Below, in pieces: positions 20,743 to 37,231 of a stretch of DNA of 41,177 nt. The notes under the pieces are model-generated. The model did no database searches and was not told where the DNA came from. It saw only the letters and a list, made by a program, of their open reading frames with translations. Position numbers and translations under genes: made by a program. The first letter of the stretch is position 1, and every line of letters starts with the position of its first letter. The stretch is from a virus: positions 1 through 41,177 of the IMG/VR virus record IMGVR_UViG_3300027793_002186. One strand, given 5' to 3'.

Positions 20743-20744
20743 AA

Positions 20745-21557
20745 ATGCCTGATCCAAGACAGCCTATTACCCTTCATGTTATCTTGCGCACTTGTGACAG
20801 AACCAATGTTCACAATGATTGGCGTGTGCGCTATTGTGATTTGGAAAAAAGTGAAATAATTAGAGGATGTGTTACAAGTTTGATCAGATCAATTACAAAC
20901 GTAACTTGGTTCAAGGTTAAACTTACAATTTTAGACGATCACAGCAGCGAAAATACAGTCTCGTTTTTGAAATCTGCAGGTGCAGCTTTGGAAAATTTTG
21001 AAATAATACAACTAGAAGAACAAGGGTATCAAAATTCTGGACATCAGCAATTTTTGCATGCAAAGAATACTGACGCTGATCTTGTTTATTGTATAGAAGA
21101 TGATTATTTGCATCAACCATCTTCAATAACTGAAATGGTAGACAGTTATTACCTTTTTGTATCTAAGCTGAAGAATCCAAACATTGTGCTGTATCCATTT
21201 GACGCTCCTGAATGTTATGATCCACCAACTGATCCTGTCTGGGTAGTTCATGGAACACAAAGACACTGGCGCACAGGAATATACTCTACATTTGTGTTAT
21301 TCACCATTCCTGATTTAATACGGCAACACTGGAATTTGTTTGAAACCTTGGCACTCAATTACAACGGTATGTATCTACGTAAGGGCAAAGAACATGAGTT
21401 TCGTTACACTGAAGATAACACTATTTGGAACATTTGGAAACATGGGGAAGCTATAAGATTCAACCCTATTCCCAGTTTAGCTCTTCATTTACAATTTGAT
21501 AGGCAACTGGAACCTTTTATTGACTGGAAAGAATGGTGGGCAAAATATGCAGTTTAA
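20745..21557 (+). CDS. GT2-like glycosyltransferase
   Basis: 270 aa from the ATG at 20745, chosen because GGAG at 20732-20735 is well spaced; an in-frame ATG at 20730 lacks a site. The sequence fits a GT-A fold: LHVILRTCDRT, then VKLTILDDHSSENTVSFL (strand with DDxS), and YCIEDDYLHQPSSITEM, whose EDD triad would bind the nucleotide-sugar metal. The C-terminal half ends in a WGxHLQ-like segment (LALHLQFD). Donor and acceptor unknown. Confidence 0.75.
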   Translation: MPDPRQPITLHVILRTCDRTNVHNDWRVRYCDLEKSEIIRGCVTSLIRSITNVTWFKVKLTILDDHSSENTVSFLKSAGAALENFEIIQLEEQGYQNSGHQQFLHAKNTDADLVYCIEDDYLHQPSSITEMVDSYYLFVSKLKNPNIVLYPFDAPECYDPPTDPVWVVHGTQRHWRTGIYSTFVLFTIPDLIRQHWNLFETLALNYNGMYLRKGKEHEFRYTEDNTIWNIWKHGEAIRFNPIPSLALHLQFDRQLEPFIDWKEWWAKYAV

Positions 21558-21927
21558 AAGCTGTGGAGAATGCAATGCCTGTTGTCAAGGTCTTTTATAT
21601 GGAAATGCATATGGAAACGTGCAAAGTATGGGACAACAGTGTAAATTTTTAGTATCTAAACGTTGTAGCATTTATGATACGAGGCCAAAATTTTGTTTTG
21701 ATTACCAATGTGCTTATACACAAGGATTACTTGACGAAGATATGAGGCCAGATAAATGTGGATTACTAGCTACAGTAAAGTATGATGAAACTACTCAAAA
21801 ACAGTATCTCCATGTTACTGAAACCAAACCAGATATTCCTTGGGAAACATATATGAAGCTTGATAAATCTGTCCATAAGTTAGGAACGTATTGGGTATTG
21901 AGGAAATGGCATGATATACAATCCTGA
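21547..21927 (+). CDS. YkgJ-type CxxCxxCC metal-cluster protein
   Basis: 126 aa from the ATG at 21547, preceded by GGTGGG. FKSCGECNACCQGLL carries the CxxCxxCC signature of the YkgJ zinc/iron-chelating family, and further cysteines follow (QCKFLVSKRCSIYDTRPKFCFDYQC) in the family's usual order. Its members bind a metal or Fe-S centre, and most have no known reaction. The 11-bp overlap with the GT2-like gene and 17-bp overlap with the next methyltransferase place it firmly in this pathway, perhaps as a redox or metal-using modifier. Confidence 0.8.
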   Translation: MQFKSCGECNACCQGLLYGNAYGNVQSMGQQCKFLVSKRCSIYDTRPKFCFDYQCAYTQGLLDEDMRPDKCGLLATVKYDETTQKQYLHVTETKPDIPWETYMKLDKSVHKLGTYWVLRKWHDIQS

Positions 21928-22576
21928 TTTCTTTAAACCAAAAGACATGAAACATGCTCGTAGCATAATCTTAACATCAGAAGATTCGACAACTGATGCC
22001 CGTTGGGAATATGAAACGTGTTGGACTTTAAAAATGTGTGAGACTTTTACTGATATAACAAGCAACAGTATTGTATTAGATTGGGGATGCGGGGTAGGAA
22101 GACTTAGCAAGGCATTGATTGATAAATTTGGGTGTCAGGTAGTTGGTGTAGACTTAGAACCAAAAATGCTTGATTTTGCTAAGGATTATGTTAACAATAA
22201 TAGGTTTTCTGCTATTACTCGCACAGAAGCGTATAGCCAACTGCCATCAAAATTTTTTACACACACTTTGAGTGTTTGGGTCTTCCAACACAGTATTGAT
22301 TTGGAAAAGGAAATTTCCTTAGTATACCGGAGCATGCAACCAGGAGCGTGGTTGCTGGTAGTAGAAAACATTACAAAAGCCATTCCAGATGCTGTTGCTT
22401 TTTTTGATGATGGTGTACAAACGTCCAATGTATTGGATAACACAGGTTTTGAAACACAAGCAACTGGTAAAATCCCCCTAGCGTATACTAGTCTTAAAAT
22501 ACACACAAACAGTTGGTGGAAAACCTACACTAAACCAAACAAAAGAGGTCAAATTGAATACAACCTTCATTATTAA
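21911..22576 (+). CDS. Class I SAM-dependent methyltransferase
   Basis: 221 aa. VLDWGCGVGRLSKALIDKFGCQVVGVDLEPKMLDFA holds motif I (DWGCGVGR) and the acidic residue ending strand beta2 (VDLE). SVWVFQHSIDLEKEI and MQPGAWLLVVEN complete the core. It is the second methyltransferase of the cluster and is not especially similar to the one at 18066, so each probably has its own substrate. Confidence 0.85.
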   Translation: MIYNPDFFKPKDMKHARSIILTSEDSTTDARWEYETCWTLKMCETFTDITSNSIVLDWGCGVGRLSKALIDKFGCQVVGVDLEPKMLDFAKDYVNNNRFSAITRTEAYSQLPSKFFTHTLSVWVFQHSIDLEKEISLVYRSMQPGAWLLVVENITKAIPDAVAFFDDGVQTSNVLDNTGFETQATGKIPLAYTSLKIHTNSWWKTYTKPNKRGQIEYNLHY

Positions 22577-23483
22577 CGGCGGTGCAGGCCGAGTTATTTC
22601 TGCAATTCCTGCATTGGAAAAATATGCAAAACTAAATCCGGATGATGATTTCAAAGTTTTGATACATGGTTGGGAGTTACTGTTTTGGAGTCATCCAATT
22701 TTGCAACATAGAAGCTTTAGTATTGGACAAAAAGGAGCTTTTGAACTTTTTATCCGAAATAGCAAAGTGGTATGTCCAGAACCCTATTATATTCATGGCT
22801 ATTACAATCAAAAATTAAGTCTGGCTGAAGCTTTTGACGAAGAAATCAACAAAACAACTGATCATTCAGATTTGGAATCACCACATTTATATATTAGCAA
22901 TTTAGAAAGAGATACTGTTAAAAGAATTATCCAAGAAAAATTGCACGAAATGAATAAAAAACGGCTAGTTGTTGTTCAACCGTATGGAAGCGGCATTGGC
23001 ATAATGAACGGTAGGCCTTATGACACTAGCCATAGAAGTATGGATCCTGATGATTATCTTAAAATAATTCAAAAATTCAACAAAGATATATTAGTTGTTT
23101 ATTTTGGATTACGTGAACTCCGGCATCCTGGAGACAAAACAAGTTTAAATATGGAATCAATGGATCCAGATTTACGTATGTATTTGAGCTTCATTGCTGA
23201 GTGTGACTATTTTGTTGGTTGTGATAGTGTAGGACAACATATGGCAAGGGCTATGAACAAGCCTGGGCTTGTACTTATGGGAAGTACGGATGAAACCAAT
23301 GTCAGCTATCCTAAACATTTCAAAATTTATCGGAACGGCCAAAAACCAATTTATAGTCCAATACGGCTAACAGGAACTGATTGTGAGTTTGCAGATCGAA
23401 TGAACGATGGTATTATGAAATTTTCAACATCACAAATAAATGAAATTGCTAATATTGTAAATTTTGAGGTTTTCAAAGGTTAA
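22554..23483 (+). CDS. GT9-like glycosyltransferase
   Basis: 309 aa from a TTG start, preceded by AGAGGT and overlapping the methyltransferase by 23 bp. INGGAGRVISAIPALEKYAKLNPDDDFKVLIHGW resembles the N-terminal loop of ADP-heptose/LPS heptosyltransferases. VVVQPYGSG and the later CDYFVGCDSVGQHMARAMNKPGLVLMGST match the GT9 donor site (D/S..H.A.A...P...L.G). The acceptor is unknown; with the gene at 18612 it gives two GT-B-type enzymes in the cluster. Confidence 0.75.
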   Translation: MNTTFIINGGAGRVISAIPALEKYAKLNPDDDFKVLIHGWELLFWSHPILQHRSFSIGQKGAFELFIRNSKVVCPEPYYIHGYYNQKLSLAEAFDEEINKTTDHSDLESPHLYISNLERDTVKRIIQEKLHEMNKKRLVVVQPYGSGIGIMNGRPYDTSHRSMDPDDYLKIIQKFNKDILVVYFGLRELRHPGDKTSLNMESMDPDLRMYLSFIAECDYFVGCDSVGQHMARAMNKPGLVLMGSTDETNVSYPKHFKIYRNGQKPIYSPIRLTGTDCEFADRMNDGIMKFSTSQINEIANIVNFEVFKG

Positions 23484-23485
23484 CA

Positions 23486-24277
23486 ATGTATGATCAAAAT
23501 GCAGGTTTGACAAAAGTTAAAAAATTCTTACTTGTCAGCAGCGGCAAAGGTGGCGTTGGTAAGTCCACTATTGCTGCGAATCTAGCAGGTGCATTGAATA
23601 ATTTGGGTTTAAAAGTGGGAATTCTGGACGCTGACATTTCAGGACCTAGTCAAGCAGTGATGTGGGATTTACCTACAAATGTACCTGTTGCTGTAACAGA
23701 AAATAAGGAACTGAGCTTGCCTTTTGTATCTCATGGGGTAAAAATTGCCACATTGGCTACACGCATAGCAGACAACCACGCAGTGCAATGGCGTGGCCCC
23801 ATGGCAAGCATAGCCCTTGTAAATTTGTTGTGTCATACAAATTGGGAAGAACTTGACTGTTTGCTTGTTGACATGCCTCCAGGTACAGGTGATATACAAG
23901 TGAGTATCTGCCAGAAGCTACCAGAGGCTAAGGTAGTTTCTGTAACCACTCCACAACAAGTTGCTGTTGCTGATACGCGAAGAGGGATGCAAATGTATAT
24001 TGCTCAAAACATAACATTGATAGGTGTTATAGAAAACATGAGCACACACATTTGTGAAAATTGCGGTCATAACAATGCTATTTTCGGAACTGATGGCGCA
24101 CAGCAACTTTGTAACGAGTATCAAGTTCCACTACTGGGTCAACTTCCACTAGATCCTTTTGTACGATTTCAAGCAGATTCTGGCAAACCTTTGACTATTT
24201 GTGATCCCCTACATCCAGTAAGTAAAATTTATGTAAAAATAGCAGAACAAATATGGAATTCTTTCAAGGAGAAATAA
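23486..24277 (+). CDS. Mrp/ApbC/NBP35-type P-loop ATPase
   Basis: 263 aa with AAAGG before the ATG. The deviant Walker A SGKGGVGKST (GKGGVGKS at 20-27), DADISGPSQ, LLVDMPPGTGDIQVSI and a CxxC in CENCGHNNAIFG are all hallmarks of Mrp/ApbC iron-sulfur cluster carriers. Such proteins bind and pass on [4Fe-4S] clusters. A phage copy inside a decoration cluster is unusual. Possible clients nearby are the CxxCxxCC protein (21547) and the Cys-motif RfbH-like enzyme (28311). Related ParA/BY-kinase-like roles are less likely given the CxxC and MPPGTGD. Confidence 0.88.
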   Translation: MYDQNAGLTKVKKFLLVSSGKGGVGKSTIAANLAGALNNLGLKVGILDADISGPSQAVMWDLPTNVPVAVTENKELSLPFVSHGVKIATLATRIADNHAVQWRGPMASIALVNLLCHTNWEELDCLLVDMPPGTGDIQVSICQKLPEAKVVSVTTPQQVAVADTRRGMQMYIAQNITLIGVIENMSTHICENCGHNNAIFGTDGAQQLCNEYQVPLLGQLPLDPFVRFQADSGKPLTICDPLHPVSKIYVKIAEQIWNSFKEK

Positions 24278-24284
24278 TACCCCA

Positions 24285-25208
24285 ATGCGATCAATGGTAA
24301 AACTCATTCATGCTGATGGTTTCCTTTCAGCTCATGATGCGCAGAAAGCTGCAAGATTAGTTCAAGGACTTTCATTTTCACCCAAGTCATATGGCTGGGA
24401 ATTGGAAAATTTTAACATGGTTTTTTCAAAACTTGAACCTATAATGAGTCAGGTGTTGGGTGAACGTGTTGTAATTGATCACCACAGATCTGGCATTTTT
24501 CGAAAACCCCTAAACAACGTTATTCATTTCGAAGAGTTTCAGTCCTTAAATGAATGGGCCTTTGTGTGTGCCTTAGAAAAAAACACTTTGAACCTATATC
24601 ACCATATAGACACAGACGGCAACACAGATGCTGAGACAGCGTTGGACAACTACAAGTTCAATTATATGAACCTTTTTGAGTGGAATTTGCATACAAACAT
24701 TTTACTGGAGCCCAGTCAAGGTGTGTTTTTTCGGCCATGGGTCTTTCATAGCCTTGATCAAGGTCTTGTTCAGTACTATCGACTATTGACGGACCGTAAA
24801 TTTAGAGTACTGGTAATGGGACCGCCAGGCAGCGAACGAGCACTCATGAGCCAAAAATTACATGAAAAAATCAATGGCAGTAGCTTGATCAAAAGCATGG
24901 CAGTGAGAAAGAAAGACAAGGACATTGATTTTTCCTCAGATGGTAGGTTAAGACAAACCTATCGAATGCTGACTCTTGCACGAAACGATAGGAGTGATTG
25001 TGTTATATTGGATCATGCATGTGTTTTAGATGAACAACGACAAATCATAAACCCTGATGTGTTAGTGTATATGAAAGGCAAAGAGCTGTGGGATAAAAGT
25101 AACGAATGGGAAGAACCCAAATATTATGACTTTGCCTTCTCAGAAGTATCAGATGAGGCAGTGTCTGCGATCTTGAATCGTATAGAGACTAAGAGAATCA
25201 CCTTATAG
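24285..25208 (+). CDS. Oxygenase/cupin-like domain fused to degenerate APS-kinase-like domain
   Basis: 307 aa. Residues 1 to about 175 look like a double-stranded beta-helix protein: VIHFEEFQSLNEWAF, then GVFFRPWVFHSLDQGLVQYYRLL, a pattern met in phage 2-oxoglutarate-oxygenase or cupin-like proteins. The second half (about 180-300) follows the plan of phage APS-kinase-like P-loop proteins: RVLVMGPPGSERALMSQKL, RQTYRMLTLAR, CVILDHACVLDEQRQIINPDVLVYM and a final KYYDFAF. The Walker A reads GPPGSERA and has lost the GK[S/T], so kinase activity is doubtful. It follows Mrp by 7 bp. With the sulfotransferase it hints at sulfate chemistry, but that is inference. Confidence 0.55.
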   Translation: MRSMVKLIHADGFLSAHDAQKAARLVQGLSFSPKSYGWELENFNMVFSKLEPIMSQVLGERVVIDHHRSGIFRKPLNNVIHFEEFQSLNEWAFVCALEKNTLNLYHHIDTDGNTDAETALDNYKFNYMNLFEWNLHTNILLEPSQGVFFRPWVFHSLDQGLVQYYRLLTDRKFRVLVMGPPGSERALMSQKLHEKINGSSLIKSMAVRKKDKDIDFSSDGRLRQTYRMLTLARNDRSDCVILDHACVLDEQRQIINPDVLVYMKGKELWDKSNEWEEPKYYDFAFSEVSDEAVSAILNRIETKRITL

Positions 25209-25213
25209 GTTAA

Positions 25214-25229
25214 AACAACAACTGTTGTT
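25214..25229 (+). repeat. Inverted repeat AACAACA-AC-TGTTGTT
   Basis: A perfect 7-bp inverted repeat with a 2-bp centre, between the end of the fusion gene and the late-type octamer at 25234. The tight centre suits a protein operator better than an RNA hairpin. It resembles the element at 3344-3360. Confidence 0.45.
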
Positions 25230-25233
25230 ACTT

Positions 25234-25241
25234 CATAAATA
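25234..25241 (+). promoter_or_regulatory. T4-late-type octamer CATAAATA
   Basis: The same octamer as at 3335. It ends only 5 bp before the ATG at 25247, so transcription from it would begin at about the start codon and give a nearly leaderless message. Either that is real or the octamer is fortuitous. Confidence 0.4.
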
Positions 25242-25246
25242 TATCC

Positions 25247-25825
25247 ATGAGCTCTTATGTTTGTTTGATCGTACCAAAAAAATTACATACTGCTGCTGCT
25301 AAACAATGGTTTCAGTGTGTTGCATCATCTGTTCCCAGCGGCTTAATTGGCGAAACATCACTATACAGTGATGCAGACACTAAAACAAGTAATTTTTATG
25401 CCAAAAAAACACGTTCTGGAAAAGTGTCTTATGTTATACCTTTGGTTCGAGACTTGGATGCAAGTGAAGTTCATAGCCTTGTTCAACAATGGTGCAAGAG
25501 TTATCCCACTGGAGACTTTCTTGTTGACTACAGTCAAAACAGCCTGGAACCACTGATTGGTACAAATAGCCTAGAACAATCCAAAATCAAGGAAATTTTG
25601 GATCTTTGGGCCAAAAGTCAACACAACACGTGGATGAAAGATGCAGTTGACAAAGGCTGGAAATTTGGATTGAAGATGAGTAGCAGAGAAAAGACTCATC
25701 CTTTGATTCAACCATGGGAGCAATTGCCCACTTATGCACGAGAGCAAAATCTCGCTGCCGTCGAGGATCTAATCAAAATTTTGGACAGCTTTGGCTACGA
25801 GATAACGCAAAAACCAACTGCTTGA
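25247..25825 (+). CDS. RyR-domain protein
   Basis: 192 aa. The C-terminal third carries the RyR-domain pattern: HNTWMKDAVDKGWKFGLKMS, HPLIQPWEQLPTYAREQN, then VEDLIKILDSFGYEI. RyR domains occur in ryanodine receptors and in bacterial and phage proteins, where they may bind nucleotide-derived ligands. The N-terminal 110 residues (SYVCLIVPKKLHTAAAKQWF, then VSYVIPLVRDLD) are unknown. No ribosome site precedes the ATG; a late-type octamer ends 5 bp before it. It sits alone between the decoration cluster and the VWA unit. Confidence 0.7.
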   Translation: MSSYVCLIVPKKLHTAAAKQWFQCVASSVPSGLIGETSLYSDADTKTSNFYAKKTRSGKVSYVIPLVRDLDASEVHSLVQQWCKSYPTGDFLVDYSQNSLEPLIGTNSLEQSKIKEILDLWAKSQHNTWMKDAVDKGWKFGLKMSSREKTHPLIQPWEQLPTYAREQNLAAVEDLIKILDSFGYEITQKPTA

Positions 25826-25851
25826 TATTGCTTTAACCCAACTCTGCAACT

Positions 25852-25859
25852 TATAAATA
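25852..25859 (+). promoter_or_regulatory. T4-late-type promoter octamer TATAAATA
   Basis: An exact consensus octamer in the 88-bp gap, 54 bp before the GTG at 25914. It would produce a leader of about 45-50 nt that contains two small hairpins. It probably drives the VWA gene and its overlapping partner late in infection. Confidence 0.65.
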
Positions 25860-25863
25860 GAAC

Positions 25864-25912
25864 GCTTGGCACAGTGTCAAGCAGTAGTTTCTCCAGGCAG
25901 TTGAGTCCTGGA
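25864..25912 (+). promoter_or_regulatory. Two leader hairpins before the VWA gene
   Basis: Hairpin 1: GCTTGG (25864-25869) pairs with TCAAGC (25877-25882) around a 7-nt loop, with one G-U pair. Hairpin 2: TCCAGG (25892-25897) pairs with CCTGGA (25907-25912) around a 9-nt loop and ends 1 nt before the GTG start. Hairpin 2 would bury the start region and its only GGA, so it could limit translation. Confidence 0.4.
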
Positions 25913-25913
25913 C

Positions 25914-26678
25914 GTGAAAGAAAAAACAGTGACAACATTTCAAGCCAATTTGGCTAATCCTTTTCCTGCCCAAAATTCCTTCAAATGGACACCCCACGCT
26001 CCGGGCCGCAATGGCACGCTCATTGCAGTTGTGCTGGACGAGAGTGGTAGCATGAGTAGTGTGCGTGATTCCACCATTGCTGGACTAAATGAGTTTGTAC
26101 AAGCACAAGCAGCTTCTGAGGGTGCTGGGGAAGCCTATCTCACGGTTATCAAGTTTGATGCCCCAAGCATCAAACCACTTTGCGAAAATCAGTTGGTTAC
26201 CATCATGAAAGGTTTCACCCGGGCCGACTATCAGCCCAACGGTGGCACCAATCTCATGGATGCCATTGGCTACACCCTTAACCGTGTGAATGGTGTGCTG
26301 GAGTCTGTGCCAGTGGCAGAACGCCCTGGAGTGCTGGTGGTGATCATCACTGATGGTCATGAGAACAGCAGCAGAGAATACAACTCTGCACAGATCAAGG
26401 AGATGGTGAAACTGGCTGAGGCTCAAGACTGGACCTTCACTTTCCTTGGCGCCAACGTTGATGCCTTTACAATGGGCGGCAGCTTTGGTATGGTCACAAG
26501 CAACACAGTGAACTACAGCACAGCTAGCATGGGCGATACAATGGAAGTGCTGAGTAAGATGACCACCACAGTGCGTATGGCCAAATCAGCTGGTGTAAGC
26601 ACGGCAGATCTCTATGCCAGCCAGAGCTTGTATGATGCTACTGATCGTGCTCGCGCAATGGGCAAAAAAGATGCGTGA
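25914..26678 (+). CDS. Von Willebrand factor A domain protein
   Basis: 254 aa from a GTG; a second in-frame GTG lies at 25929. IAVVLDESGSMSSVRDS gives the MIDAS DxSxS, NGGTNLMDAI supplies the MIDAS threonine, and VVIITDGHENSSREY the final aspartate; all metal ligands are present. VWA domains bind a divalent metal and a partner protein. The C-terminal ~60 residues are helical (VRMAKSAGVSTADLYASQ). The gene overlaps the next by 8 bp, so they probably act together. Role in the phage unknown; similar stand-alone VWA proteins occur in bacterial stress operons. Confidence 0.88.
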   Translation: MKEKTVTTFQANLANPFPAQNSFKWTPHAPGRNGTLIAVVLDESGSMSSVRDSTIAGLNEFVQAQAASEGAGEAYLTVIKFDAPSIKPLCENQLVTIMKGFTRADYQPNGGTNLMDAIGYTLNRVNGVLESVPVAERPGVLVVIITDGHENSSREYNSAQIKEMVKLAEAQDWTFTFLGANVDAFTMGGSFGMVTSNTVNYSTASMGDTMEVLSKMTTTVRMAKSAGVSTADLYASQSLYDATDRARAMGKKDA

Positions 26679-27408
26679 TCCGTTAGGATTGGACCTTAAG
26701 ATCCGTCCAAAAGGACGGAGTCTTGCTGACGAATACTACCACAAGGGGCAGACTTGGATTGAGGGTCGCTACAACAGCGACTATGTGATTGAAGTCACCA
26801 ACCACAGCTGGCAGCGCATGTGTGTTATACTCAGTGTGGATGGATTGTGCGTTTGTGATGGCAAATCAGCAAGCTTTGACAGTGATGGCTTTGTGGTTGA
26901 CCCCGGCAGTACCATCACTGTTCCAGGTTGGCTCATGAACAATCAGCAAGCTGCAAAGTTTGTGTTTGGCACAAAAAACAGCAGCTATGCTTCTGAAATG
27001 GGCCAGAACACAGACAATGTGGGCGTGATTGGGGCTGCATGGTTTGATGAAGAAGTCAAGTATCATGCACAGCCGTTTGTTGGAACTAAGCCACTGTTTG
27101 GTGGCTCATCAGCTATACCCAAAGGAATAGTTGGTCAAAGCCTGTCTAGCAACTCCATAGTTGCCTCAGGCAGTATGGGTACAGGTTTTGGTGACTCTAC
27201 CAATTTCAATACCACACAAGTCAGCTTCAAAAAGCGTAGCAAGCAGCCTCTTTTGGTGCAAAGCATTTTTTATGACTCTGCAGATGCATTGCAGCGGATG
27301 GGTATTCGCTTGCGGGATAGGCAAGCCTCTCCCACTCGAGTAGCTTTTCCCGGAAGCGAGCCAAACTATTGTAAGCCACCACCCAGCTGGGTTCAAAAAG
27401 CCCGCTAA
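26671..27408 (+). CDS. VWA-partner protein, unknown function
   Basis: 245 aa from the ATG at 26671, overlapping the VWA stop by 8 bp; an earlier in-frame start at 26614 would overlap far more. Residues about 20-130 form a beta-rich module: EGRYNSDYVIEVTNHSWQRM, VILSVDGLCVCDGKSASFDS, GSTITVPGWLMNNQQAAKFVF and NVGVIGAAWFDEE. I recall the same string of motifs in uncharacterised bacterial and phage proteins, but no function is established. The Ser/Gly-rich stretch after 150 looks like a linker. A small CCGTCC-AAAA-GGACGG hairpin lies within its first codons (26703-26718). Confidence 0.7.
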   Translation: MRDPLGLDLKIRPKGRSLADEYYHKGQTWIEGRYNSDYVIEVTNHSWQRMCVILSVDGLCVCDGKSASFDSDGFVVDPGSTITVPGWLMNNQQAAKFVFGTKNSSYASEMGQNTDNVGVIGAAWFDEEVKYHAQPFVGTKPLFGGSSAIPKGIVGQSLSSNSIVASGSMGTGFGDSTNFNTTQVSFKKRSKQPLLVQSIFYDSADALQRMGIRLRDRQASPTRVAFPGSEPNYCKPPPSWVQKAR

Positions 27409-27446
27409 CAAATTGACATTGCTGTTTCTGTGCACAAATATAATGC

Positions 27447-28292
27447 ATGGAAACAGCAATTTCAGTTTTTGGTGCAACAGGTTTTGTTGGTAAGTCATTT
27501 GTGCAACAAACACACCACAAGTGCATCTGTGTTCCTCGTGAACACCGTGTGCCACCAACTGATAACATATTGTATCTGATTTCCACTACAGACAATTACA
27601 ATGTATTCAGTGATTTACACAAAGACATTGACACCAATCTAAATGTTTTGATGGAAACACTACAACATTGTAAGAAAACAGGTTTGGTTTTCAATTTTGT
27701 ATCTTCTTGGTTTGTGTATGGAAGCCATAGCCAATTGCCTGTTCCTGAAACTGCTTACTGTGATCCCAAAGGTTTTTACAGTATTACCAAAAGAACCGCT
27801 GAACAACTCTTGATGAGTTGGTGCAATACGTTTGATGTAAATTATCGAATCCTTCGCCTGAGTAACATTTATGGTCCAGGAGATGCAGGTGCAAGCACTA
27901 AGAAAAATGCTATACAGCATATGGTTACACAATTGTATCATGACAAGCCTATTCAACTCTATGAGGGTGGTTTAGTTTCTCGCGACTTGTTGTACATTAG
28001 CGACGCGGTAAGAGCTATCAGCTTAGTGTTGGAGAAAGGTGAACTCAATTCCGTCTACAACATTGGTTACGGGAAACCCACTTTATTGCGTGATGTTATT
28101 GATATTGCTACTCTCTTAACAAACAGTCGGTCTCATGTCAGCAACATACCTACACCTGATTTCCACAAAAAGATACAAAGCAGAGATTTTTGGCTTGACA
28201 CAACAAAACTGCAAAAACTTGGATTTGCACCACAAGTGTGCCTGACTGAAGGTTTAACATCCTTGATCAATAGTATTGCCCTACACTCTTAA
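27447..28292 (+). CDS. NAD-dependent sugar epimerase/dehydratase (extended SDR)
   Basis: 281 aa. ISVFGATGFVGKSF is the GxxGxxG dinucleotide-binding loop only a few residues from the ATG, so the start is probably right. YSITKRTAEQLL gives the YxxxK catalytic pair, and LRLSNIYGPGD and DLLYISDAVRAISLVLEKG follow as in NAD(P)-sugar epimerases or dehydratases. The gene ends 18 bp before an RfbH-like 3-dehydrase, fitting a two-step route to a modified sugar nucleotide. TATAAT at 27439-27444 abuts the start and no ribosome site is visible. Confidence 0.9.
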   Translation: METAISVFGATGFVGKSFVQQTHHKCICVPREHRVPPTDNILYLISTTDNYNVFSDLHKDIDTNLNVLMETLQHCKKTGLVFNFVSSWFVYGSHSQLPVPETAYCDPKGFYSITKRTAEQLLMSWCNTFDVNYRILRLSNIYGPGDAGASTKKNAIQHMVTQLYHDKPIQLYEGGLVSRDLLYISDAVRAISLVLEKGELNSVYNIGYGKPTLLRDVIDIATLLTNSRSHVSNIPTPDFHKKIQSRDFWLDTTKLQKLGFAPQVCLTEGLTSLINSIALHS

Positions 28293-28310
28293 ACAAAGGT
28301 TTCTTTTTCC

Positions 28311-29615
28311 ATGAGCATTCGAACTGAAATACAAAATTTTCTTAAACAAGTTGGGGAAAAGGAAAGCAATCTATTTCCTTATATGGCAAACTCAGGCGTT
28401 TTTGAGCCCGGTAAGTCCACAGTTTATTATTCAGGCCCATACTGGGATGAAGATGAGGTGATGGAAATGATGCACAGCTTGTTGAAAGGCAAATGGTTGA
28501 GCAGTGGCGAAAAAGTTGCTCGTTTTGAAAAGCACTTTGGTGAGAAGTTCAATTTAGCACACAATGTAATGGTCAACAGCGGAAGCTCGGCCAATCTGGC
28601 CATGATTGGCGCATTGAAAAAGTATTATGGTTGGCGAGACAACAGTGAAATCCTGGTGTGTGCATGCGGCTTTCCAACTACTATTGCTCCTATTGTTCAA
28701 AACAATCTAAAGCCAGTATTTGTAGACATTGACTTCACTGACCTCAACTGGGATTTGGCTGATCTTGAATCCAAAATCTCACCAAATACAGTTGCGTTGT
28801 TCAGTAGCCCTGTGTTGGGTAACCCTTATGATTTTGATCGTATTCAAGACATTGCTACCACTCATGGATTGAAAATCATCTCAGACAATTGCGACAGTTT
28901 GGGTAGCAAGTGGCGAGGCCAATATCTCACAGACTTCAGTGTTGCTGCCAGTTGCAGTTTTTATCCAGCTCATCATCTGTGCACAATGGAAGGTGGCATG
29001 GTCAGTAGCCAAACAGCTGAAATTGTTGCCCTTGCAAGAAGCATCAGTTGGTGGGGCAGAGATTGCCATTGTGTTGGGGCACAAAACCTAATCCAGTGTG
29101 GTATGTGTGGAGAAAGATTCAAGAAGTGGATTCCTGAATACGACGCAATTTTGGATCACAAATACCTTTTCAGCAACATGGGTTACAATCTCAAGCCACT
29201 GGATCTGCAAGGCGGTGTAGGGCTAGTGCAACTTAAAAAATGGGAAAAGATACACACTCTACGTCGTGAGAACAAGCAGCAGATACAAGCCATTATGGAA
29301 ACCATCCCTGGAGTGCGTGTGATAAATGAACACACAGAGGCCGAAACCAGCTGGTTTGGTGTGCCTGTTGTGTGCGACAACAAAGATCAGAAACAGTGGT
29401 TGGTAAGCTTTTTGGAGGGCAATAGAGTGCAAACCCGCAACTATTTTGCTGGTAATATCTTAGTTCATCCTGGTTATCGCCACTTGGGCGATTGGACGAT
29501 GTTTCCCAACTCCAATCAGGTGCTGGATAGAGTGTTTTTCCTTGGATGCAGTCCTACCATCACTGGTGAGATGATCAGCTACATTGGTGATGTAGTCAAG
29601 CGTTTCAACCGATAA
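28311..29615 (+). CDS. rfbH: RfbH/E1-type CDP-4-keto-6-deoxyglucose 3-dehydrase (DegT family)
   Basis: 434 aa of DegT/DnrJ/EryC1 fold. The PLP lysine position reads SFYPAHHL with His221, not Lys; this swap marks the 3-dehydrases (E1/RfbH, ColD) as opposed to aminotransferases. RDCHC...QCGMCGERF supplies Cys252, 254, 263 and 266, at the place where E1/RfbH holds its [2Fe-2S] cluster and ColD does not. DHKYLFSNMGYNLKPLDLQ and TRNYFAGNILVHPGY are also RfbH-like. The family removes the C3 hydroxyl of a 4-keto-6-deoxy sugar using PMP and a reductase, on the route to 3,6-dideoxyhexoses such as abequose. No reductase or CDP-sugar 4,6-dehydratase is seen here, so the host may supply them. Confidence 0.85.
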   Translation: MSIRTEIQNFLKQVGEKESNLFPYMANSGVFEPGKSTVYYSGPYWDEDEVMEMMHSLLKGKWLSSGEKVARFEKHFGEKFNLAHNVMVNSGSSANLAMIGALKKYYGWRDNSEILVCACGFPTTIAPIVQNNLKPVFVDIDFTDLNWDLADLESKISPNTVALFSSPVLGNPYDFDRIQDIATTHGLKIISDNCDSLGSKWRGQYLTDFSVAASCSFYPAHHLCTMEGGMVSSQTAEIVALARSISWWGRDCHCVGAQNLIQCGMCGERFKKWIPEYDAILDHKYLFSNMGYNLKPLDLQGGVGLVQLKKWEKIHTLRRENKQQIQAIMETIPGVRVINEHTEAETSWFGVPVVCDNKDQKQWLVSFLEGNRVQTRNYFAGNILVHPGYRHLGDWTMFPNSNQVLDRVFFLGCSPTITGEMISYIGDVVKRFNR

Positions 29616-32227: not shown

Positions 32228-32476
32228 ATGAGCACGCTAGACAGAAACTTGTGGGATAGACTACCAAATGAGAAACCAGCGGTCTTTTGGAGTGATCTAG
32301 AGGATGCTAGATATCCTTTCGTTGACACAGGTCAGTGGGTATGGGATGATAGTTGGGCAAAAATGCTGGCATGGTGCCAAAGTGAGATTGGTGAAGAACG
32401 ATACACCTGGATTGGTGACAGATTTTGGTTTTTAGACACTGACGATGCCACACGTTTCGCGTTGGTATGGACTTGA
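32228..32476 (+). CDS. Small Trp-rich protein, FxLxW-tail family, tandem copy 1
   Basis: 82 aa, 7 bp after the previous gene. Eight tryptophans in 82 residues. RNLWDRLPNEKPAVFW and ARYPFVDTGQWVWDDSWAKMLAWCQSEIGE lead to the tail FWFLDTDDATRFALVWT. Copy 2 (32486) has the same plan: RxLWxRLP, YPFVD, WC..EIGE.xY, and an almost identical tail. Similar small proteins with a yyF.deeDa..F.L.W ending are frequent in T4-like phages, without known function. Confidence 0.7.
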   Translation: MSTLDRNLWDRLPNEKPAVFWSDLEDARYPFVDTGQWVWDDSWAKMLAWCQSEIGEERYTWIGDRFWFLDTDDATRFALVWT

Positions 32477-32729
32477 GTTGACGTTATGCATTATGACCGC
32501 ACATTGTGGAATAGACTACCTTGGCACAAAGATACTCTCTCAGGGGAAGATTTTTTGGCTGCTGGCTACCCATTTGTGGATTTGCCAATTCCCTGGTGGT
32601 GGCCTGAGTGGCACACGGTGCATAATTGGTGCACCACAGAAATAGGTGAAGGGCAATATATGCACAATGGTGAAATATTTTGGTTTCTCAACACCGAAGA
32701 TGCCACACGTTTCGCGTTGGTATGGACTT
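32444..32729 (+). repeat. 31-bp exact direct repeat at the 3' ends of two tandem genes
   Basis: The 31 bases at 32444-32474 recur without mismatch at 32699-32729 and code the shared tail DATRFALVWT. Sequence just upstream also matches with a few changes. The rest of the two genes is much less alike, so this end was either recently copied (gene conversion) or is under constraint at DNA level. Confidence 0.9.
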
Positions 32730-32731
32730 AA
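32486..32731 (+). CDS. Small Trp-rich protein, FxLxW-tail family, tandem copy 2
   Basis: 81 aa, 9 bp after copy 1. MHYDRTLWNRLPWHKDT, AAGYPFVDLPIPWWWPEWHTVHNWCTTEIGEGQY, then FWFLNTEDATRFALVWT. The centre differs from copy 1 (WWWPEW in place of VWDDSW) while both ends are kept. No ribosome site of note, so translation may depend on the upstream gene. Confidence 0.7.
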   Translation: MHYDRTLWNRLPWHKDTLSGEDFLAAGYPFVDLPIPWWWPEWHTVHNWCTTEIGEGQYMHNGEIFWFLNTEDATRFALVWT

Positions 32732-32761
32732 CGAAGTTTCAACCCTTGAAAGGACCTGGCT

Positions 32762-33163
32762 ATGACACTCCTGGCTAATCTTCCTCTGTTCCTGCTCTAC
32801 TACGGCAGCTCGCTGGCCATGATTTCCATCAGCATGTGGATCTACATGCGAGTCACACCCTACAACGAAGTTCGGCTGATTCGAGAGGGCAACACTGCTG
32901 CTGCACTCAGCTTTGCTGGCACGCTCTTGGGCATGTGCATCGCAATGGCATCGGTAATCATCTACTCAACCAGCTGGGCAGACAAGCTGGTATGGTGTGG
33001 GGTGGCACTTGTGATGCAAATCCTGATGTGGGAAATTGTGAACTGGGTTTTTGGCAACCTACAGCGGGGCATTGCTGTGGATCGCTGCATGGCTGACGCT
33101 GTGATGCTGGCTGCAACCAGTGTTGGTGCAGGAATTCTGCAGGCAGCTTGTTTCACTCCTTGA
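32762..33163 (+). CDS. DUF350 (YjfL-type) inner-membrane protein
   Basis: 133 aa, with GAAAGGA upstream. Four hydrophobic segments (about 7-30, 46-68, 74-97 and 112-131) with short polar loops, including RVTPYNEVRLIREGNTAAALSFAGTLLG, the typical DUF350 loop and second helix. DUF350 proteins such as E. coli YjfL are integral membrane proteins of unknown function. As in yjfL-yjfM-yjfC, the next two genes code a DUF1190 lipoprotein and a glutathionylspermidine-synthetase-like enzyme. A TTTCAA-CCC-TTGAAA hairpin (32737-32751) overlaps the ribosome site. Confidence 0.85.
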   Translation: MTLLANLPLFLLYYGSSLAMISISMWIYMRVTPYNEVRLIREGNTAAALSFAGTLLGMCIAMASVIIYSTSWADKLVWCGVALVMQILMWEIVNWVFGNLQRGIAVDRCMADAVMLAATSVGAGILQAACFTP

Positions 33164-33187
33164 CACACCACGTATCTCTGCTATATT
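33160..33187 (+). promoter_or_regulatory. Sigma70-type promoter, TTGACA-16-TATATT
   Basis: TTGACA (33160-33165) overlaps the DUF350 stop codon. After a 16-bp spacer TATATT lies at 33182-33187. The start near 33194 would leave a leader of only about 13 nt carrying TTGGAGG before the lipoprotein ATG. Confidence 0.8.
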
Positions 33188-33206
33188 TTTTCAGTTGGAG
33201 GCAAAC

Positions 33207-33935
33207 ATGAAGCATAGCCGACGAGTAGCTCTGGTTCTGTTGGGTAGTGTATCTGCACTCACGCTCACAGCATGTGATAAAAACCCCAAGGATGGTGACC
33301 CCATCTACGAGAGTGCTGAGCAGTGCCAAACTTTGGGCGGTAGTCAGTGTGATGAGCGCTGGTATCAGGCCGTCACGGACCACGTGAAGACAGCGCCCAA
33401 GTACAATAGCCAGGAAAGCTGCTTGCAACAGGGACACCAAAACTGTACGCCTGTGAGTGCTGGCAGTGGCGGCGGTAACATCTGGCTACCGGCCATGGTA
33501 GGCTTCATGGCAGGACGAATGCTGGCCGACACACGGCCGGTGTATCTGCAGGGCTACAATGACCCCAGGAACGATCGGGAGCGTGAAGATCGGCGTGTGA
33601 TGGCAGGCGGCTATCACGGCGGCATGACCACTCCGGTGATGGTAGGAAACTACTGGGATGGTGGAAGCTCTAGTAGCTCGTCAAGCTCTACAAGCACCTC
33701 ACGCCCCAGTCTCAGCCAAGGCATGAACGCTGGTGCAGCTCGTGCAGGCTGGACAGCCTCTGCCCCAAAGCCCAATGGGGTGGCTGTGAGCCAAGCTGGC
33801 ACAGTGGCCAGCCGGATGCCAGCCAGTGTCTCACGTGGCGCCGCAGTGTCATCTCCTTCTATCGGCACCAGCTCAGCGGCTCGTGGTGGCTTTGGCGGCA
33901 GCGGTGCAAGCATGGGCAGCAGCAGTGGAGGTTGA
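33207..33935 (+). CDS. DUF1190 (YgiB/YjfM-type) lipoprotein
   Basis: 242 aa from the ATG at 33207, behind TTGGAGG. A lipoprotein signal peptide (KHSRRVALVLLGSVSALTLTAC) puts the lipidated Cys at 23. Asp24 at +2 is the enterobacterial inner-membrane retention signal, so if processed by that rule it would stay in the inner membrane. The mature part has the DUF1190 cysteine pairs (EQCQTLGGSQCDERW, ESCLQQGHQNC) and a long Ser/Gly-rich tail. Its E. coli relatives YgiB and YjfM are encoded beside YgiC and YjfC, and the next gene here is of that type. Confidence 0.88.
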   Translation: MKHSRRVALVLLGSVSALTLTACDKNPKDGDPIYESAEQCQTLGGSQCDERWYQAVTDHVKTAPKYNSQESCLQQGHQNCTPVSAGSGGGNIWLPAMVGFMAGRMLADTRPVYLQGYNDPRNDREREDRRVMAGGYHGGMTTPVMVGNYWDGGSSSSSSSSTSTSRPSLSQGMNAGAARAGWTASAPKPNGVAVSQAGTVASRMPASVSRGAAVSSPSIGTSSAARGGFGGSGASMGSSSGG

Positions 33936-33959
33936 CACAGGCTCCAATTGTGCTATAGT
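33932..33959 (+). promoter_or_regulatory. Sigma70-type promoter, TTGACA-16-TATAGT
   Basis: TTGACA (33932-33937) again overlaps the previous stop codon, with a 16-bp spacer to TATAGT (33954-33959). It gives a leader of about 18 nt with AGGAGA before the GTG at 33984. The trio's second and third genes therefore each have their own promoter. Confidence 0.8.
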
Positions 33960-33983
33960 GCCCTTGAACACAGGAGAACAACA

Positions 33984-35135
33984 GTGAAGCGACATGTGAT
34001 TGCCCCTCGCCCCAACTGGCGTGAGCGTGCAGAAGAAGTGGGATTCACCTATCACACCTCAGGGAAGCCCAGTGAGAGCGGAGATGGTACCTACTGGGAC
34101 GAGAGTGTGGCCTACGAGTTCACCAGTGCAGAGATTGACGAGCTGGAGGCTGCAACCGAAGAGGTTCATGCCCGCTGCCTCGATGCTGTGGACCGTGTGT
34201 TCAGTGATCGTCCCCTGATGAAGCGGATGGGCATTCCCGAAGCCTACCACGACTACATCCAGTGGAGTTGGGCACGGAATGATCCCACGCTCTATGGGCG
34301 TTTTGACTTTGCCTATGACGGCAAAACTCCGCCCAAGATGCTGGAATACAACGCCGACACCCCTACCATGATCATCGAAAGTGCGATGATGCAGTGGTTT
34401 TGGCTACAGGACCAGCGTCGTGGTGCGGACCAGTTCAACTCGCTGCACGAAAAGCTGCTGGAGCGTTTTGGTGAGATCCGAACCCAGATGACTCCTGGAG
34501 AGCGGTTCTACTTCGCTGGCTTTCGAGACAACGAAGAGGAAAGCCAAACCTGCCGCTATCTGCAGGACCTGGCCACACAGGCTGGCATGGATGCACACTT
34601 CATCGACCTTGGTGAGATTGGCTGGCTCAACAACCAGTTTGTGGACCTTGAGGATCGTCCAATCAAGTATTGGTTCAAGCTGTATCCCTGGGAGTGGATG
34701 TTCACAGACGAGTTTGGCGAGCACACCCGTCAGGACGTGTCAGGAATTGTGGAGCCCATCTGGAAGTGTGTGCTCAGCAACAAGGGCATCCTGCCTGTAC
34801 TGCATGAGATGTTCCCCAACCACCCCAATATCCTGCCTGCCCACTGGGATGACACCCGGCTCAAGAGCGGCAGCTATGTGAGCAAGCCCATGCTGAGCCG
34901 AGAGGGAGCCAACATCACCGTGTTTGAGCAGGGCAAGGAAGTTGCCCGCACTGACGGCAAGTATCACGGGCACAAGATCTACCAGGAGCGTGCCTCCCTG
35001 TTTCAGCAGGACGGGCACTATGCTGTGATCGGAAGCTGGGTGGTGGGCAACCAGAGTGCAGGCATCATTGTGCGCGACAGTGGCGAAGAGATTGTGCGCG
35101 ATCTCAGCCGAGTGGTGCCTCACTGGTTCCTGTGA
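33984..35135 (+). CDS. Glutathionylspermidine-synthetase-like ATP-grasp enzyme (YgiC/YjfC type)
   Basis: 383 aa, almost the same length as E. coli YgiC (386). The GTG at 33984 has AGGAGA well placed. KRHVIAPRPNWRERAEEVGFTYHT opens as in YgiC. FDFAYDGKTPPKMLEYNADTPT, KYWFKLYPWEWMF, KGILPVLHEMFPNHPNILP, YVSKPMLSREGANI and SWVVGNQSAGIIVRD follow in the synthetase-family order, including ATP-grasp residues. Only the synthetase half is present, with no amidase domain. True GspS joins glutathione to spermidine, while the substrates of YgiC/YjfC remain unproven. It completes the DUF350/DUF1190/synthetase trio. Confidence 0.92.
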   Translation: MKRHVIAPRPNWRERAEEVGFTYHTSGKPSESGDGTYWDESVAYEFTSAEIDELEAATEEVHARCLDAVDRVFSDRPLMKRMGIPEAYHDYIQWSWARNDPTLYGRFDFAYDGKTPPKMLEYNADTPTMIIESAMMQWFWLQDQRRGADQFNSLHEKLLERFGEIRTQMTPGERFYFAGFRDNEEESQTCRYLQDLATQAGMDAHFIDLGEIGWLNNQFVDLEDRPIKYWFKLYPWEWMFTDEFGEHTRQDVSGIVEPIWKCVLSNKGILPVLHEMFPNHPNILPAHWDDTRLKSGSYVSKPMLSREGANITVFEQGKEVARTDGKYHGHKIYQERASLFQQDGHYAVIGSWVVGNQSAGIIVRDSGEEIVRDLSRVVPHWFL

Positions 35136-35404
35136 TGAAAGACCCCACGCTCCTGGATCATGTGCTCAGCACCAGTTTCATTGTGCCGGACTGGGAAGCT
35201 GAGCAGATTGAGGCCGCTTACAGGTGGTGCGAGATTACGTTTGGTGAGGAGCGTGGAGGAGACATCGTGGACGAGGCGCAGGATGGTTGGCTAGACTACT
35301 TTGAAGGTGACTGGTGCATGAGCTGGTATGCGACAAAAGCCACTTGGGTTTTTTGGTTCAGCAGTCGAAGCCGGCTGGCTCAATTCATTCTCTCCTGGAG
35401 TTAG
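35135..35404 (+). CDS. Small Trp-rich protein, FxLxW-tail family
   Basis: 89 aa. The ATG at 35135 uses the last base of the preceding stop (TGATG). IEAAYRWCEITFGEERGGDIVDE and GDWCMSWYATKATWVFWFSSRSRLAQFILSWS. The helix with WC..EFGEE and the aromatic C-terminal strand resemble the tandem pair at 32228 and 32486. Function unknown. Confidence 0.65.
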   Translation: MKDPTLLDHVLSTSFIVPDWEAEQIEAAYRWCEITFGEERGGDIVDEAQDGWLDYFEGDWCMSWYATKATWVFWFSSRSRLAQFILSWS

Positions 35405-35752
35405 ATGATGACCCAATGGCAGCATCTGTATTTGCATGAGCATGCCAACATGCAGAATTTGTTTGAGATGATGCAGTGGTGTTCCCGGCGACACGGTGAT
35501 CCTGCAATCCTTCCCCAGTGGGTTGAGAATCGACTGCAATGCTCAGCACATGCGACAAGTTGGGACCAGACGCTGGGTGGATGGACAAGAGATTGGCGCC
35601 ACTCAGGCTACAGTTTTTACCACCCAAATCCCAGATTCTGGGCACAAGTGAAGCAAGGCTTTTGGGACCCAACGTATCTTGAGATATTCCCGTTGTGTGT
35701 GCTGTTCTACAACCGTGAGGATTTGGCAGAGTTCAAGCTGATTTGGTCGTAG
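35405..35752 (+). CDS. Small Trp-rich protein, FxLxW-tail family
   Basis: 115 aa, starting at the base after the previous stop; two consecutive ATGs, with CTGGAG upstream. The centre contains an insertion-like segment (SWDQTLGGWTRDWRHSGYSFYHPNPRFW). The tail LCVLFYNREDLAEFKLIWS matches the family ending. Function unknown; by position it is co-transcribed with the synthetase-like gene. Confidence 0.65.
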   Translation: MMTQWQHLYLHEHANMQNLFEMMQWCSRRHGDPAILPQWVENRLQCSAHATSWDQTLGGWTRDWRHSGYSFYHPNPRFWAQVKQGFWDPTYLEIFPLCVLFYNREDLAEFKLIWS

Positions 35753-35803
35753 ACTTTGTATTAACATCGTGTAGTGTGTTGAACGTAATGTGGAATGGGA
35801 AAA

Positions 35804-36829
35804 ATGATTGACCAACGGATCGGCTTCGCATGCAAACTGATGACTGAGGAAAGCTTCCCAGATTCGAAGCTGGAAAAACAGTGGTATGCCCAATACAACA
35901 CCAAAAGCACTACTGTTACAAGTCTTGACAAGCTGCCGCGGACTGTGGCCATTGACAAGCTGTGCGGTATAATTCAACACAACATCGATACGATGAAGCG
36001 TCAGTTTCAGTTGGTTGGAAGTTGGCCACAAGCACTACGGATGATGCGGATTGGTAGTGAAATCCTACCAGCTCGTACACATCACAACTGGACACAAGCG
36101 TACCAAGAGCCAGTTGTAATCAAAACGCTACAAGGGTTTGGGGCAGTGGGTGAGTTGGCACGGAAGCATGATATTCGACTCAGCTCGCATCCAGGTCAGT
36201 TCACTATGCTGGTATCTCACACTTCTGAAACAGTAGAGCGTGCCATCGAAGATCTTGAATACCACAGCGAGATTTTTCGACTGATGGGATTTGACAGCAG
36301 CGACCAACGACAAGAAATCAACATACATGGCGGTGCAAAACGATCAGACTTTCTGGATTATTTTCAACACAGTTTCGCACGTCTTGCAAGTGATACAAAA
36401 CAGTGGCTGAGTGTGGAAAATGATGAATACAGCTATTGCTTGGACCATCTATTGCCGCTCCACGATAAGGTGAAAATTTGCCTTGATATCAACCATTACT
36501 GGATTCATCAAGGACAGTATCTTGAGCCTAATGATCCTAGACTTACGTTGGTTATTAACAGCTGGCGTGGCGCCCGTCCTGAAATACATGTTGCATTTCC
36601 ACATGAAGAAGTTTTGCCTGAACACAGCAACACAGTTCGTCCCAACATTGCCTTGCTGGAAGCACAAGGTATCAAGCGGGCCAAACTGCGTGCACATTCC
36701 AACCGTGCATGGAACAAGGCTTTGAACAGCTATTGTCTTGAGTTTTGGGATCGCATGGACCTCATGTGCGAAGCCAAGGAAAAGAATCTCGCATCAAAAG
36801 AGTTGTGGGAATATTCAAAAACACCGTAA
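35804..36829 (+). CDS. uvsE: UV-damage endonuclease (UVDE/UvsE)
   Basis: 341 aa from the ATG at 35804, with GGA/GGGA upstream; an in-frame ATG at 35795 is the alternative. A TIM-barrel UVDE with its metal-binding motifs in order: RIGFACKLMT, LRMMRIGSEILPARTH, IRLSSHPGQFTML, QEINIHGGAK, LSVENDEYSY, KICLDINHYWIH and EIHVAF, then RAHSNRAWN. The enzyme nicks DNA 5' of UV photoproducts and some abasic sites, starting repair without host UvrABC. It fits a phage exposed to sunlight and partners the ligase encoded 4 kb upstream. Confidence 0.92.
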   Translation: MIDQRIGFACKLMTEESFPDSKLEKQWYAQYNTKSTTVTSLDKLPRTVAIDKLCGIIQHNIDTMKRQFQLVGSWPQALRMMRIGSEILPARTHHNWTQAYQEPVVIKTLQGFGAVGELARKHDIRLSSHPGQFTMLVSHTSETVERAIEDLEYHSEIFRLMGFDSSDQRQEINIHGGAKRSDFLDYFQHSFARLASDTKQWLSVENDEYSYCLDHLLPLHDKVKICLDINHYWIHQGQYLEPNDPRLTLVINSWRGARPEIHVAFPHEEVLPEHSNTVRPNIALLEAQGIKRAKLRAHSNRAWNKALNSYCLEFWDRMDLMCEAKEKNLASKELWEYSKTP

Positions 36830-36866: not shown

Positions 36867-36875
36867 ATGAGATGA
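36867..36875 (+). other. Two-codon mini-ORF (ATG AGA TGA) overlapping the speD start
   Basis: AAGGAG at 36856-36861 stands 5 nt before this ATG and 10 nt before the speD ATG at 36872. The TGA of the mini-ORF overlaps the speD start by two bases. Ribosomes could start on the mini-ORF and re-start on speD, or speD could use the site directly. Confidence 0.35.
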
Positions 36876-37231
36876 CTGACCAATTTTGGGGATATCACCT
36901 AACAATCGACGCCAAGGCTTGTAGATTAGAGGCCGCTCAAAACGGTGAACTGATTGCTAAATTTCTCACACACCTGGTTGAGGAGATCGACATGATTGCA
37001 CACGGATCGCCGCAAGTGGTGCACTTTGGTGAAGATAACAAGGCTGGCTGGACCGGAATTCAGTTGATAACTACGTCAAATATTGTAGGACATTGGTGCG
37101 ATGACAGCGGCGATGCTTACTTTGACGTTTTCAGCTGCCGCCCATACGACACTCAAAAGGTAGCTGACCTCTTTCAACAGTATTTTGCGCCAGAGCGCAT
37201 GAGGACTAATTTCCTCACACGCCAGGCATAA
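36872..37231 (+). CDS. speD: S-adenosylmethionine decarboxylase, prokaryotic (SpeD) type
   Basis: 119 aa, the size of the short bacterial class. FWGYHLTIDAKAC opens it, EEIDMIAHGSPQVVHFG follows, and TTSNIVGH supplies Ser69 and His74, with Cys89 in DVFSCRPYD. The spacing Ser-5-His and Ser-20-Cys equals that of the characterised Thermotoga maritima enzyme (Ser63, His68, Cys83), in which the serine becomes the pyruvoyl cofactor after self-cleavage. Thr before Ser, where that enzyme has Glu, is a change at the cleavage bond. The product would be the aminopropyl donor for spermidine, though some phage homologues decarboxylate amino acids instead. Confidence 0.88.
   Translation: MTDQFWGYHLTIDAKACRLEAAQNGELIAKFLTHLVEEIDMIAHGSPQVVHFGEDNKAGWTGIQLITTSNIVGHWCDDSGDAYFDVFSCRPYDTQKVADLFQQYFAPERMRTNFLTRQA

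Follow-up and report, generated by a model that had tools for sequence, protein, structure and literature searches.

A yjfLMC-like gene trio in a jumbo phage lineage, a candidate peptide–polyamine conjugation module with a tailed lipoprotein

A viral sequence of 41,177 nucleotides (IMG/VR record IMGVR_UViG_3300027793_002186, positions 1 to 41,177; hereafter called the window) is a fragment of a jumbo (large tailed) phage and carries three adjacent genes, here designated L, M, and C, which encode a DUF350 membrane protein, a DUF1190 lipoprotein, and an ATP-grasp ligase of the YgiC/YjfC type (Table 1). It is quite possible, though we stop short of calling it probable, that the trio represents a phage-borne yjfLMC/ygiBC peptide–polyamine conjugation module, situated at the inner membrane, in which C modifies the C-terminal tail of M. 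The protein families, the bacterial operons (PMC11237479), and the occurrence of the ligase in phages (passages of PMC9992855) were already known. New within the literature searched are the complete trio fixed in a jumbo-phage lineage, its links to SpeD and to a family of small proteins, and a protein tail that follows the ligase from genome to genome.

Table 1. Features of the trio and its surroundings, in window coordinates
Feature	Coordinates	Strand	Evidence
X paralogue, upstream of L	32228..32476	+	family HMM
X paralogue, upstream of L	32486..32731	+	family HMM
L, DUF350 (YjfL family) inner-membrane protein, 133 aa	32762..33163	+	PF03994 2e-31, 109 bits, cut-off 26
Promoter-like site TTGACA-N16-TATATT, -35 box over L stop (33161-33163)	33160..33187	+	site scan
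M, DUF1190 lipoprotein precursor, 242 aa	33207..33935	+	PF06693 1e-19, 72 bits
M lipobox LTAC (L-T-A-C), residues 20-23, Asp at +2	33264..33275	+	sequence, alignment
M C-terminal tail RGGFGGSGASMGSSSGG, proposed substrate or docking tag of C	33882..33932	+	22-protein alignment, enrichment beside C
Promoter-like site TTGACA-N16-TATAGT, -35 box over M stop (33933-33935)	33932..33959	+	site scan
C, YgiC/YjfC-type ATP-grasp ligase, probable peptide–polyamine ligase, 383 aa, GTG start	33984..35135	+	GSP_synth PF03738 2e-139
X, ATG overlapping C stop (TGATG)	35135..35404	+	family HMM
X paralogue, downstream	35405..35752	+	family HMM
SpeD-family pyruvoyl decarboxylase (AdoMet, ornithine or arginine)	36872..37231	+	PF02675 1.2e-17; phrog_3125 4e-21

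Gene organization and phage setting

The E. coli genes yjfL-yjfM-yjfC (4411979-4414191) agree with L-M-C in family, order, and strand. The original prediction, made from the sequence of the window, of a yjfLMC-like trio in the E. coli order is thereby borne out, the DUF350, DUF1190, and GSP_synth genes being adjacent and all on the plus strand; its suggestion of a link to the membrane also holds, as L is a DUF350 membrane protein and M a lipoprotein. The AlphaFold2 model of L (pLDDT 93) contains four long helices (residues 4-31, 45-68, 72-96, and 110-130), from which L is predicted to be a four-helix membrane bundle; a fold search of the PDB with this model returned nothing below E 1.

The phage setting is supported by the tail-fiber gene and other phage families of the window and by relatives found through their ligase; these reach 452 kb, and a terminase gene is present in the longest. 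The closest counterparts of this terminase are those of Sinorhizobium phage Phosso and Agrobacterium phage Atu_ph07. The order L-M-C is kept in ten of ten close relatives (five lineages), and in the lineages with both flanks present the trio has a DNA ligase gene on one side and a UvdE-like gene on the other. Among these relatives the identity of C is 74-82%, while that of the flanking DNA ligase drops to 48% and that of the UvdE-like protein to 38%. L, M, and C are under purifying selection, with dN/dS (where estimable, and with dS near saturation) of about 0.07-0.19 for most pairs and a maximum of 0.29 for one pair of L genes. The constant order and these low ratios, about 0.07-0.29 overall, argue that the trio is not a product of chance. 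A mobile cassette moving within the clade of the window was considered and rejected, the locus being syntenic wherever its flanks are present.

Promoter-like sites and flanking small proteins

Promoters overlapping the first two stop codons of the trio had been predicted, and promoter-like sites with their -35 boxes over these codons were indeed found. Both are sigma-70-like, with 11 of 12 matches and a TG preceding the -10 box; the scan gave five sites, against 2.5 (sd 1.4) in shuffles. Similar intergenic sites are present in relatives, at both positions in locus L002, before M in L007, L009, and L010 (in these three none was found before C), and before C in L008. The overlap of promoter and stop codon as a conserved device was rejected, since the sites recur among the relatives and the overlap varies. 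The motif TTGACA-N16-TATANT is recurrent in this phage clade (L002, L008, and the window), often with TGC preceding the -10 box, and L008 possesses one perfect 12/12 copy at position 5922.

The trio is flanked by members of a family of small proteins, X (81-115 residues). The window has four copies, and in every close relative C is immediately followed by one to four. No Pfam or PHROG match was obtained for the family, and its HMM found no member in the rest of the window or at other C loci.

The ATP-grasp ligase

The best PDB relatives of C are YgiC (7uk8, 2e-94) and YjfC (7uk6, 1e-91), with GspSA (E. coli Gss; 2e-29) and trypanothione synthetase far behind. GspSA belongs to the same ATP-grasp family, and its residues R316, D318, E330, N332, K498, K533, and R598, which we take from the 2IO7-2IOB work to be the ATP, Mg, and substrate ligands, align with R106, D108, E121, N123, K267, K301, and R364 of C. 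All seven ATP/Mg ligand positions compared are kept and are invariant in alignment A1, which removes the earlier reservation that the synthetase might lack ATP-grasp ligands. The amidase domain of GspSA is absent from C, which at 383 residues against 619 aligns with the synthetase half only.

YgiC and YjfC of E. coli are named peptide–spermidine ligases in RefSeq and, in a passage citing Pederick 2023, in PMC12568646. The statement that the function of these genes is unknown is consequently outdated in the case of C, which, to judge from its sequence, probably joins polyamines to peptides. No natural substrate of YgiC or YjfC was found stated in the literature searched, a body of papers outside which the primary reports (Pederick 2023 and Sui 2012) lie.

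The lipoprotein and its C-terminal tail

M proteins are very variable in length and in their middle sequence, and have in common the lipobox region and a C-terminal tail in which RGGFG is followed by about 10-14 small residues up to the C-terminus. Alignment of 22 DUF1190 proteins reveals that cysteines 40 and 48 are invariant and cysteines 23, 72, and 80 nearly so; in the tail, R226 is nearly invariant and G228-F229-G230 invariant. The model of M (pLDDT 57 overall) is ordered only at about residues 31-150, and a fold search with it gave no meaningful match. Its tail region is of low confidence, which would fit a flexible substrate or binding tail but alone proves nothing.

Of 137 phage and bacterial C loci, 124 have a tail-bearing ORF within 3 kb of C and on its strand, whereas among other ORFs the tail is found in 15 of 6004; these counts are inflated by the homology of the M proteins to each other. 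Thirteen loci apparently lack such an ORF; in several of them the contig ends, C is truncated, or M overlaps the open frame of C or lies on the opposite strand. In the shuffle test, which used unique tails alone, the strict motif [RK]GGFG was present in 88 of 112, compared with 0.25 in shuffled tails. Each of the 112 unique tails ends in S, G, E, A, or T (about 35% for other ORFs), with S and G roughly equal, and the distance from the start of the motif to the end of the protein is mostly 13-18 residues. When only ORFs with G/S/A-rich ends are compared, the motif occurs in 96 of 436 near C versus 5 of 825 elsewhere, and three of these five (L127, L151, and L154) are probably displaced M genes.

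Loci without L still have the tail together with C. Methylomonas-type loci have lost the lipobox and have a multi-TM domain fused in place of the lipid anchor, and they keep the tail. E. coli YgiB and YjfM likewise possess an RGGFG-like tail (RGGYG in YjfM) with a Gly-Gly end. A search of the literature for RGGFG, C-terminal, and lipoprotein together found nothing, Sui 2012 and the 2009 amidoligase survey (Iyer) being outside the set searched.

Proposed mechanism

Because this enzyme family joins amines to the C-terminal carboxylates of peptides, the tail is most simply read as labeling M as the substrate. C, as a cytoplasmic ATP-grasp ligase, would phosphorylate the C-terminal carboxylate of a peptide and couple to it an amine such as spermidine; it would recognize M through the RGGFG tail, so that the polyamine becomes joined to the C-terminus of M. 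The ligase should be cytoplasmic and M periplasmic, from which we surmise that modification must precede export. The modified M would then leave the cytoplasm, receive its lipid, and be held in the membrane next to L, with its polycationic end facing the periplasm, where it might alter the charge or stability of the envelope, or the access of other phages, during infection. The SpeD-family enzymes of the same phages may help to supply the polyamine. According to its title, a preprint (PMC12636315) describes a peptide whose biosynthesis goes through the lipoprotein pathway.

The main rival to the tail as substrate is that it serves as a docking or sorting signal, by which M would recruit C or be positioned in the envelope, with C placing the polyamine on another peptide, for example a glutathione-like or a peptidoglycan peptide. 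The RGGFG block is internal and is followed by a variable stretch of small residues and a variable last residue, as would suit a binding motif; this last residue is looser than expected if it alone were the reaction site, and in the M proteins of four loci (L035, L036, L038, and L042) a second RGGFG copy is found upstream. The narrow distance between motif and end, and a last residue that is always small or Glu, suggest, however, that the end itself matters, and we regard a docking role as unlikely, though a serious contender.

If M is indeed the substrate, its C-terminal polyamination could be an undescribed RGGFG-guided modification which is spread over several bacterial phyla and has repeatedly been captured by large phages, some of them supplying the tailed lipoprotein alone and borrowing the ligase of the host; we advance this wider proposal as possible but on the doubtful side. 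An RGGFG tail beside the ligase in phages and in several bacterial phyla provides YgiC and YjfC with a concrete candidate substrate. Were this true, one more protein modification would be added to those known, there would be a reason for ygiBC and yjfLMC being clusters, and large phages would be seen to remodel the host envelope via polyamine chemistry.

SpeD and polyamine metabolism

The SpeD gene lies 1.7 kb downstream of the trio. Its product possesses the motif ITTSNIVGHW...DVFSC, with the pyruvoyl Ser, the His, and the Cys corresponding to S63, H68, and C83 of T. maritima SpeD (residues as given in PMC10407285). The ESH..H.WPE-like block of canonical copies is absent, and Gln, Thr, and Tyr are of the SpeDC type at positions judged from text. 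A phage relative of it, phiN3 (33%), has been proven to be an AdoMetDC; the NCBIfam score of the window protein is under the cut-off, and phmmer found no match to it in the PDB. With AdoMet, ornithine, or arginine as its candidate substrate, the window SpeD probably supplies polyamine synthesis.

Relatives possess one to three SpeD genes each, including canonical AdoMetDC-like copies elsewhere in the genome. SpeD is found in 14 of 17 C-bearing IMG/VR relatives versus none of eight C-less phages (Fisher p 0.00015, with contigs treated as if independent and the C-less phages few and phylogenetically unmatched). It is absent from Phosso, vB_OspM_OC, and three large C-bearing contigs. The 452-kb contig also carries an arginase-family gene. 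Spermidine synthase was not found in any of 20 records, and the phage would thus depend on the host for the last step.

The proximity of SpeD to the trio would also suit a metabolic role, in which C makes a soluble peptidyl- or glutathionyl-polyamine that stores or sequesters spermidine in the course of infection, with M and L as accessories. Phages have many polyamine enzymes, sequestering ones among them, and passages on Achromobacter phage Motura name hss and gss, which are clustered there (PMC9992855). Against this, C has no GspSA amidase half and is closest to YgiC and YjfC; YgiC is stated not to share Gsp activity (a passage of PMC12506659, citing Sui 2012); and the presence of a tail-bearing ORF next to C at 124 of 137 loci would be left unexplained. 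We consider such a role improbable, and retain M as the preferred substrate.

Distribution in phages and bacteria

Among 52 wider phage records with C, the three genes are clustered in about a dozen, and the order L-M-C is limited to the clade of the window. One group of phage contigs of up to 465 kb has the order M-(x)-C-L. Phosso, vB_OspM_OC, and T4-like phages of Aeromonas have M+C, and the more distant phages commonly carry M+C, C+L, or C alone. L was not found in the sister lineage of the window (L031, L032, and L034). In bacterial loci, M-C-L and L-M-C are each common. Phages and bacteria are intermixed in the tree of C, where well-supported branches force at least eight label changes. 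These mixed arrangements and the intermixed tree indicate that the trio is one of several arrangements and was gained more than once, and the distant phages with M-C-L, M+C, C+L, or C alone show that it is not obligatory. The original prediction that the three genes work as a unit finds support in the close relatives, all of which keep the trio while its neighbors diverge, but does not extend to the wider phages with incomplete sets. The pair that travels together in the latter is C and the tail-bearing lipoprotein.

Repeated movement of C between phages and bacteria, as the label changes attest, is what would be expected if the three genes were hitch-hikers of bacterial origin that serve no common purpose in the phage. 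We find this highly improbable, as the order is the same in ten contigs with syntenic flanks, purifying selection, and intergenic promoter-like sites; the selection data already largely refute it.

M without C occurs in several large phages of Enterobacterales, jumbo phages among them. In six C-less phages which infect Enterobacterales (RaK2, SNUABM_37, POP15, SA002, BF, and Special G), the M tail is RGGFG-like (RSGFG in RaK2) with a Gly-Gly end; E. coli, at least, encodes C. Phage lipoproteins that serve superinfection exclusion exist, for example T5 Llp, and an M protein without C would be in keeping with such a function, where the main task of M would be to keep rival phages from a receptor or from the inner membrane, with C and L tuning it. 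The same system is, however, present in many bacterial genomes, and none of the proteins compared with the PADLOC families (the trio, SpeD, and three X proteins) had a match, which leads us to view exclusion as very unlikely.

In three loci (L073-L075) C is shortened to about 240 residues and no tail ORF was found near it, and in L076 TGA and TAG codons interrupt the reading frame of C, the tail ORF still being there. Two records of the phage collection that match C, AFYI01000007.1 (501 kb) and AGRM01000002.1 (691 kb), are named as Salmonella enterica strains.

Comparison with known systems

The E. coli cluster yjfIJKLMC includes the PspA-like gene yjfJ as well as yjfI and yjfK, whereas none of these was found beside the phage copies in a search with E. 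coli-seeded models of viral loci, including the close relatives, with 5 kb flanks (window span 32517-36626). The window differs from E. coli yjfLMC also in its promoter-like sites before M and C and in having SpeD and X nearby. E. coli ygiB-ygiC likewise consists of a DUF1190 lipoprotein gene followed by that of the ligase, with the same kind of tail and its Gly-Gly end, but, unlike the window trio, has no adjoining DUF350 gene.

Group 3 of the CesT/Tir-PspA operons combines a bacterial ATP-grasp ligase, DUF350, and DUF1190 with a link to polyamine metabolism (PMC11237479). These operons possess a PspA-like gene, whereas none was found beside the phage copies. Motura resembles the window in having C, a short tail-bearing lipoprotein, DUF350, and a polyamine enzyme alongside; it differs in its order, M-C-L with C and L separated by one gene, and in having homospermidine synthase in place of SpeD.

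Other genes of the window

The tail fiber gene is followed by five near-tandem genes that match "regulator of chromosome condensation" (RCC1-like repeat) families (6807-15590). A run of sugar- or glycan-modification genes (15627-29615) encodes a Nol-like carbamoyltransferase, a sulfotransferase, glycosyltransferases, methyltransferases, an NAD-dependent epimerase, and a DegT aminotransferase. A Sir2-family protein and an Mrp/NUBPL-type P-loop NTPase are encoded at 39158-39973 (minus strand) and 23486-24277 (plus strand).
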